DNA from: Leptotrichia sp. oral taxon 223
GTDB taxonomy: Bacteria; Fusobacteriota; Fusobacteriia; Fusobacteriales; Leptotrichiaceae
Direction: 5' to 3'
NCBI RefSeq assembly: GCF_013394795.1
Contig: NZ_JABXYU010000001.1
Coordinates: 558,001 to 622,000, forward strand
Length of the DNA: 64,000 nt
Both the position numbers and the translations under genes were made by a program. Shown piece by piece: positions 4,816-56,986 of the stretch. Positions within the stretch are counted from its first letter, which is position 1. Each line of letters begins with the position of its first letter. A model generated the notes under the pieces. That model was not told where the DNA came from and searched no databases. It was given only the letters and a program-made list of their open reading frames with translations.

Positions 4816-4936
4816 TTAATACTAAACCCCAGTTAAATAACGAATTTATTACAATTTTTTTTAATAAAGGATAAAACCTAATATTTTCAAATAATTAAAA
4901 CATAATTTTTACTTTTTAAATAGAGTCTACTATAAA
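4816..4936. repeat. Second MITE-like segment with the same 24-bp ends
   Basis: The left motif at 4816-4839 (reads TTAATACTA-AA-CCCC-AGTTAAATA) is 21/24 identical to the motif at 128-151. An inverted, more degenerate copy at 4913-4936 is 20/24 identical to the one at 315-338. The enclosed bases are AT-rich and non-coding. The right end overlaps the first bases of the structured repeat that follows. The pair therefore flanks the ilvA-ilvB-ilvN block on both sides. Confidence 0.4.
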
Positions 4937-5053
4937 CTAATCCGTCGGAGCATTTTTCTGTGCTGGCAAAACTGTTTGAGCATAGCGAGTTTTTTGTCAG
5001 TGCAGAAAAATGTCGTAGACTAGCCATAGGTTATTGCGTAGCAATCTTGCCAT
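4925..5053. repeat. Structured intergenic repeat, copy A
   Basis: The element contains an outer GTCTAC/GTAGAC pair (4925-4930 with 5015-5020) and a long stem starting CATTTTTCTG (4951) and closing CAGAAAAATG (5002-5011). Its loop contains GTTTGAGC and TAGCGAG. A 3' tail carries a small perfect hairpin, ATTGC-GTA-GCAAT (5033-5045), followed by TTGCCAT. A second copy lies at 56255-56384 with the same loop and tail motifs but different stem sequence that still pairs. No open reading frame and no T-tract are present, so it is not an ordinary terminator. Confidence 0.7.
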
Positions 5054-5057
5054 AATT

Positions 5058-5258
5058 TTAATTATCAGGATAAACCTTTACTGCAAGATAAGGTTTTGCG
5101 ACAATGAGCAATCCTACAGAAATAAATAAAGAAAAACATAGTAATATGAAAAAATATTTATTAATCAAAATGTCCAAATTTTTCTCTTTTTTTTTCAAAA
5201 AGTTTATATTTATTCCTATTTCTTCAAATACACAATCCTTGATTTTTTTTATGTTCAT
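5058..5258 (-). CDS. Small single-pass membrane protein, unknown function
   Basis: This is a 66-residue ORF whose ATG lies 2 bases after the ilvD stop, suggesting translational coupling. The N-terminal half is charged (NIKKIKDCVFEEIG, then KKKEKN) and is followed by one hydrophobic helix (YFFILLCFSLFISVGLLIVA, about residues 35-54) and a short KPYLAVKVYPDN tail. I do not recognise a family. The tight position behind ilvD is the main argument that it is translated; otherwise it could be a fortuitous reading frame. Confidence 0.5.
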   Translation of the reverse strand: MNIKKIKDCVFEEIGININFLKKKEKNLDILINKYFFILLCFSLFISVGLLIVAKPYLAVKVYPDN

Positions 5259-56254: not shown

Positions 56255-56384
56255 AAACTGAAAAGTGTCGTGATTTTTTGGAAATAAAATCGATTGTTTG
56301 AGCGAAGTTTTACGTAGCGAGTTTCGATTTTGTTTTCAAAAAATGCTTAGACGAGCCAGGGATAGTGCGTAGCACTTTCGCCAT
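56255..56384. repeat. Structured intergenic repeat, copy B
   Basis: A 21-bp continuous stem pairs 56273-56293 with 56324-56344 (starts ATTTTTTG, closes CAAAAAAT, includes AAAATCGA/TCGATTTT). The loop has GTTTGAGC and TAGCGAG as in copy A. The tail TAGAC-G-AGCCA is followed by the hairpin AGTGC-GTA-GCACT (56364-56376) and TCGCCAT. Tail identity to copy A is about 29 of 38 positions; the second position of the small hairpin changed from T-A to G-C with pairing kept. The gap 56043-56602 also holds a hairpin AAGGGAAAT/ATTTCCCTT (about 56440-56465) and no gene. Confidence 0.72.
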
Positions 56385-56602
56385 TCTCTTTAATATGCCA
56401 TTATTTAAATATGTTAAAATAACTATTATTGCGAAATGAAGGGAAATGGCGATTGATTTCCCTTGCTTTAAAGAGATAAAAAAACATAAAAATAAAAGAA
56501 AAAACTATTATTAACAAAAAACTCTAAAAAAAATTTAGAAAATAATTTAATTGAATGTTTAGGAATAAATTTATATAATTCATTAAAAAGAGAGGAAAAA
56601 AG

Positions 56603-56986
56603 ATGATTTTTTTAGATAAGGCTATTTTGTATTTAACGCAAAATATTGAAAAACCACGTGAAATAATTGAAGAAGAACTTGAATTTGTAATAAAGCAAAG
56701 TATTTTAAACTATTTAGTAAATGAAAAAGGGATTGATATTAATGAACTTTCTGATTTGAATGTGACACTTGTTATAGATTTTGAGGATGATTTGACTAAT
56801 AATCGTAAAAAGATGGTTGTGGAGGAATATATGTTTGAAGTAAATCATAAAAATAGTCCATTAATACGAACTTTTAGACTTGGAAGCGATAATGAGCATT
56901 ATGTCCGAAGTGACTTAAAGAAATTGGAAAATGAAATTGATATGTTTGAAAATGGGATTGGAGTTCCAAAAAATAAAAGGGAGTAA
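56603..56986 (+). CDS. Small acidic protein, unknown function
   Basis: A 127-residue soluble protein with AGAGGAAAAA before the ATG. It has an N-terminal helix (KAILYLTQNIEKPREIIEEE), a beta region (LNVTLVIDFEDDL), and a C-terminal polar helix. No family is recognised. It converges on the QueL-like gene with only 6 bases between stop codons and no visible terminator. Codon use is like its neighbours. Confidence 0.68.
   Translation: MIFLDKAILYLTQNIEKPREIIEEELEFVIKQSILNYLVNEKGIDINELSDLNVTLVIDFEDDLTNNRKKMVVEEYMFEVNHKNSPLIRTFRLGSDNEHYVRSDLKKLENEIDMFENGIGVPKNKRE

Follow-up and report, generated by a model that had tools for sequence, protein, structure and literature searches.

A structured hairpin module carried by MITE-like elements of Leptotrichia, with a tip motif found in other bacterial phyla

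Two intergenic spacers of Leptotrichia sp. oral taxon 223, whose AT-rich genome comprises 2.58 Mb, lie 51 kb apart and hold the same arrangement of hairpins, although the sequences of their long stems differ. Which kind of element keeps its loops and its pairing while its stems change, and does its structure act as DNA or as RNA? The window referred to here is the whole stretch of 64,000 nucleotides that was analysed. A preliminary description made from it proposed selection on RNA or single-stranded DNA structure, as in REP/RAYT elements or a dispersed small RNA.

The two copies in the window

Both copies were found with the layout already described; each has a 21-bp stem and an outer GUC/GAC helix (Table 1). 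The small GTA hairpin, counted in the preliminary description as part of this layout, belongs to an insert, optional and about 55-75 nt long, within the region of a second hairpin; most copies are without it. In copy A the insert has pushed away the 5' arm of the second hairpin, and the right shell end has decayed. The second-hairpin loop of copy B is similar to GGCRATG loops of other phyla. The z-scores of the RNA folding energy were -2.65 for copy A and -4.34 for copy B. Directly downstream of copy B is an ORF of 127 aa (window 56603-56986), for which a Pfam search gave no match, and near the window start (287-336) there is a partial end of the TACTAAACCCC shell without the hairpin.

Table 1. 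Elements of copies A and B, in window positions
Feature	Position	Strand	Remarks
Copy A long-hairpin module, outer GTC to AGCC	4944..5025	+	
Copy A outer helix	GTC 4944-4946 / GAC 5018-5020	+	
Copy A long stem, 21 pairs	4951..5012 (arms 4951-4971 and 4992-5012)	+	Alignment columns 8-28 with 59-79
Copy A tip CTGTTTGAGCATAGCGAGTT	4972..4991	+	Cross-phyla motif
Copy A small hairpin ATTGC-GTA-GCAAT	5033..5045	+	Start of optional insert
Copy A second hairpin, surviving 3' part: loop CAATGA, arm GCAATCCTAC	5091..5117	+	Aligned against insert-free copies
Copy A MITE-like shell, left terminal inverted repeat TACTAAACCCC..	4820..4839	+	Preceded by TAA; 20-copy alignment, survey of terminal inverted repeats and 3-bp duplications
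Copy B long-hairpin module, outer GTC to AGC	56267..56355	+	
Copy B outer helix	GTC 56267-56269 / GAC 56350-56352	+	
Copy B long stem, 21 pairs	56273..56344 (arms 56273-56293 and 56324-56344)	+	
Copy B tip	56294..56323	+	Inner loop longer (GAGCGAAGTTTTACGTAGCGAG)
Copy B small hairpin AGTGC-GTA-GCACT	56364..56376	+	Start of optional insert
Copy B second hairpin AGGGAAAT-GGCGATTG-ATTTCCCT	56438..56466	+	

Copies and covariation in Leptotrichia

DNA searches with each copy as query gave 28 and 44 matches in the source genome. Three subfamilies were recognised: A (window 4944), B (window 56267) and C, the latter with GAC/GTC as outer helix in place of GTC/GAC. The 25 distinct cores of the source genome were aligned with nearly gap-free arms, and a 26-pair structure over them forms in 97.1% of the pair cells, with changes on both sides at 18 of the 26 pairs (147 cells). 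The percentage paired, the number of double-change cells and the covariation score were each reached by none of 500 shuffles. Shuffle statistics ignore the kinship of the copies; the slid controls retain it, and in these a shift of the partner by 1-3 columns lowered pairing to 45-52%. The covariation is far above both kinds of control, and the claim of conserved loops and covarying stems in a dispersed repeat is borne out.

A covariance model had been suggested as the means to find further copies. The model, R1, identified 59 in the source genome, from 10 to 149 in 11 of 12 congeners (149 in genome G038, none in G033) and from 2 to 40 in four genomes from other families of the same order; a close copy is present in Leptotrichia sp. 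oral taxon 879 (L110). Further copies, paired stems and covariation above chance were thus all found where the preliminary description had named their lack as grounds for rejection. Longer inserts can occur within the inner loop of the long hairpin (L015, L019, L025, L033), some with a CTTTCGCCA..TTGCGAAAG hairpin, which suggests nested mobile pieces.

Covariation of this kind could also be mainly mutational, hairpin-templated copying between the palindrome arms keeping the stems paired without selection and only the tip being selected or simply inherited. Paired changes are seen even among near-identical recent copies of G038, and in Clostridia the stems are very long and nearly perfect, both in line with such copying. 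However, the asymmetric internal loops GGAG/TCGTA and GTTAAG/TA and the unpaired tip persist, all of which templated copying would remove, and there is covariation in the tip cap and, outside the palindrome, between loop and linker (see below). As a full account we consider it unlikely; templated copying between the arms may help to keep the stems paired.

Carrier elements

The carriers are MITE-like elements of at least two kinds, with different ends and duplication lengths. In the source genome the shells of subfamily A have the terminal inverted repeats TACTAAACCCC / GGGGTTTAGTA, and 3-bp target duplications, mostly TAA or TTA, were identified at 19 of 24 shells versus 10.2 with swapped flanks. 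Hairpin-free shells exist as well (e.g. L037-L042, L050, L051). The second kind is an element of about 465 bp in G038 carrying a head-to-head pair, one B-type and one A-type, each with its second hairpin. Its ends are GATGGTTTAAAAATTTTAGGGG and GACAGAGTAAAATAKTTAGGGG, with the terminal inverted repeats GATGG../..CTGTC (GATGG/GACAG ends). The target duplication is of exactly 10 bp in 14 of 17 copies, of 9 bp in one and of 11 bp in another; on average 9.0 of 10 bases match, versus 4.0 after flank swap. Since the same module is carried by two shells that differ in their ends and in duplication length (3 bp against 10 bp), it is not the end that a single transposase recognises.

The two window copies belong to a repeat family carried from place to place by non-autonomous transposons, and that a structural module is carried in MITEs can be stated with high confidence.

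The spacer of copy A measures about 30 bp in several close relatives versus about 540 bp here; a clean empty site was not found among relatives, the joint being not exactly at the shell ends. In G030, the orthologous spacer (L252) is occupied by a small insert of another kind, which has GTTCGATAAC/GTTATCGAAC ends and contains a GGGGTC..GACCCC hairpin. G038 shows a burst of some 45 almost uniform 465-bp elements (L283-L289, L292-L321), flanked by exact 10-bp duplications and lacking a visible autonomous partner, and a search there for a parental insertion sequence gave no end pair spaced 1-3 kb. The Tc1/IS630-type transposase DDE_3 (PF13358) was discarded as a candidate, being absent from the source genome.

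Relation to REP/RAYT and other known repeats

The relation to REP/RAYT elements, moved by a Y1 (HUH) transposase, was not supported. The module and the REP, BIME and REPIN elements with RAYT (PMC3116915, PMC6006769, PMC3733652) are alike as intergenic dispersed hairpins with loop and stem variants and inverted dimers, and share the avoidance of divergent spacers. The module stems are, however, far longer, and the core of 80-90 nt has a paired GUC/GAC foot and no tetranucleotide foot of the GTAG/GTGG type, whereas in published REPs the hairpin is short and its foot is of the GTAG type (PMC6006769, PMC3733652). The carriers show 3- and 10-bp target duplications, which are not expected from Y1 transposases. 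A RAYT/TnpA-like gene had been proposed as a check: the source genome contains only two Y1_Tnp genes, both short, TnpA-like and not RAYT-like, one of them beside a TnpB-like ORF, with no module copy within 1.5 kb. A copy was identified nearby at only one of 30 Y1 loci, and 4 of 15 tip-carrying genomes, one of them with 148 copies, gave no Y1_Tnp match, some of these being MAGs and maybe incomplete. With no linked Y1 gene, movement by such a transposase is largely refuted and highly improbable.

The NEMIS/Correia elements of Neisseria are MITEs whose hairpin transcripts are cut by RNase III. The elements described here are likewise MITEs with a hairpin, and differ from them in ends and host range. 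Prokaryotic MITEs in general (PMC10969869) share with the carriers a short, AT-rich and noncoding sequence, terminal inverted repeats, target duplications, a folded interior and many intergenic copies; unlike in these, the folded interior is here common to shells whose ends differ and, as far as its tip goes, to several phyla. BOX elements of Streptococcus pneumoniae (see PMC10969869) are similar in being built of modules, some of them optional insertions, and in having a conserved secondary structure, but are known from streptococci. No description of the loop sequence or of related repeat families was found in the open literature, subscription journals and preprints being outside this scope and a prior name possible. 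The carriers, as MITEs, are of a known kind, and the new part is the module common to several shells and phyla. Both the placement inside MITE-like elements and the cross-phyla tip go beyond what the window alone could show.

The tip motif in other phyla

The tip pattern CTGTYTGAGCN{0,14}AGCGAGTTT was scanned over the GTDB genomes, and the tip CTGTYTGA-(GC-GNA-GC)-GAGTTT was matched in at least 119 contigs from at least 8 phyla. The titles of the matches listed include Bacteroidota, Pseudomonadota, Desulfobacterota, Bacillota, Fusobacteriota, Nitrospirota, Gastranaerophilales and one Patescibacteria MAG, and many of these contigs belong to isolates. In most of the matches listed the motif forms the apical loop of a hairpin, and the stems are unrelated: six or more contiguous pairs are found right beside the motif in 89 of the 115 distinct matches listed versus 3% of control positions, and the stems around the tip have, among the matches listed, a median of 43.5 Watson-Crick pairs and up to 93. 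Among 26 genomes the copies range from 1 to 210 per genome, the reversed pattern being absent from all 26. Exact matches were identified in only 5 of 296 genomes, an even draw from the phylum of Arcicella; the distribution of the element is thus patchy.

Between GAGC and AGCGAG there is mostly GN, which yields the cap GC-GNA-GC, a stable DNA mini-hairpin; longer inserts often form extended hairpins. In G038 the caps AC-GAA-GT and GCAC-GATTA-GTGC occur, the cap thus covarying from GC/GC to AC/GT. As caps and stems both vary, what is conserved is the internal loop CTGTYTGA/GAGTTT, with a variable helix on either side.

In two Clostridium genomes (G004/G015, L207) the hairpins often form opposite-strand pairs about 500 bp apart, resembling inverted dimers. 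An all-against-all ORF comparison of 119 loci, made for a gene family linked to the hairpin in other phyla, returned only common families (e.g. ABC ATPases), taken as chance, and the plasmid search with one Ralstonia copy and copy A gave no match. A phage-borne origin was rejected, only 5 of 2.9 million viral contigs matching.

Second hairpin and linker

In many of the Bacteroidota, Pseudomonadota and Fusobacteriota matches a second hairpin starts about 60 nt past the tip, its loop being for example GGCAATG, GGCGATG, GTCAAG or ATCAAG (GGCGATTG in copy B). The linker is complementary to this loop (CTTGAT:ATCAAG, CTTGAC:GTCAAG), and complementarity is higher within a locus than with loops swapped (4.03 versus 3.49, 0 of 500). 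Judged from these sequences, the covariation of loop and linker probably reflects a pseudoknot-like pairing. In Leptotrichia the pairing would be of only about 3 bp (GCC:GGC), and a pseudoknot there is not established. The polypyrimidine of the linker resembles a mirror of the second-hairpin strand and scores higher with its own than with swapped partners (0 of 500), but mirror and direct matches score about the same; a triplex of linker and second hairpin is only suggestive. The pseudoknot-like pairing and the occurrence of the tip on one strand suggest a functional role for just one of the strands.

Action as DNA or as RNA

The module might act as RNA: transcribed from its own or neighbouring promoters, it would form a long double-stranded hairpin with a pseudoknot, which would insulate or stabilise neighbouring transcripts or be cut by RNase III, as other MITE transcripts are. 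The loop-linker covariation is in line with this, as are the G-U pairs fixed in Leptotrichia stems, the few copies in divergent spacers, a TATAAT-like box upstream of several B copies and, weakly, the triplex hint. Orientation to flanking genes, on the contrary, is unbiased (21 versus 25 and 20 versus 17), and function through read-through RNA is disfavoured by this equality. Promoter-like sites are no commoner than in shuffles, and no terminator-like site was found at the copies. Isolated mismatches are G.T in 54 cases and A.C in 34 (p=0.04), a slight excess; a constraint on RNA only is less expected, since a strong G.T excess should then appear. Rfam gave no family at gathering score over the whole window; among 18 loci of other organisms the score was reached by just one RNase P and one 6S RNA, both away from the hairpins, and all matches in a permissive scan of copy B stayed below threshold, most of them being to eukaryotic microRNA families and taken as chance. 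The even orientation, the slight G.T excess and the promoter and terminator results weakly favour a DNA-level structure over read-through RNA.

Action of the module at the DNA level is our tentative preference, held at somewhat less than an even chance. The pseudoknot-like pairing and the fixed G-U pairs suit RNA equally, and DDE-type transposition needs no single-stranded DNA. Action as RNA, itself rather doubtful, ranks close behind.

Proposed explanation and its meaning

The explanation that we prefer, with a probability of roughly 45% as a whole, is that of a strand-specific folded module bound at its tip by a putative trans-acting factor and captured by unrelated MITE shells. The module consists of a long hairpin whose tip is the internal loop CTGTYTGA / GAGTTT capped by a short hairpin, usually GC-GNA-GC, followed in many lineages by the second hairpin with its loop complementary to the linker. 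Stem sequence is free while pairing is kept, and the tip and the asymmetric internal loops are retained. The functional form would be a nucleic acid in its folded state, with DNA, single-stranded or extruded, as the most likely kind, and the factor, of host or element, may bind it through the tip. The module would then help its carrier to persist or spread, and unrelated shells may have captured and exchanged it.

It is a more doubtful proposition that all these hairpins form one undescribed class of structured module, spread through at least 8 phyla, in Leptotrichia by way of unrelated shells, and read by a putative conserved factor. Should a single folded module indeed persist in several phyla as stems and carriers change, its shape and tip would be expected to be read by some conserved partner or process. 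Identifying this partner would account for a large class of intergenic repeats that lack annotation and number up to about 210 per genome, and could bring to light a new type of interaction between host and element. With the tip motif and the covariance model, the family can be searched for right away.
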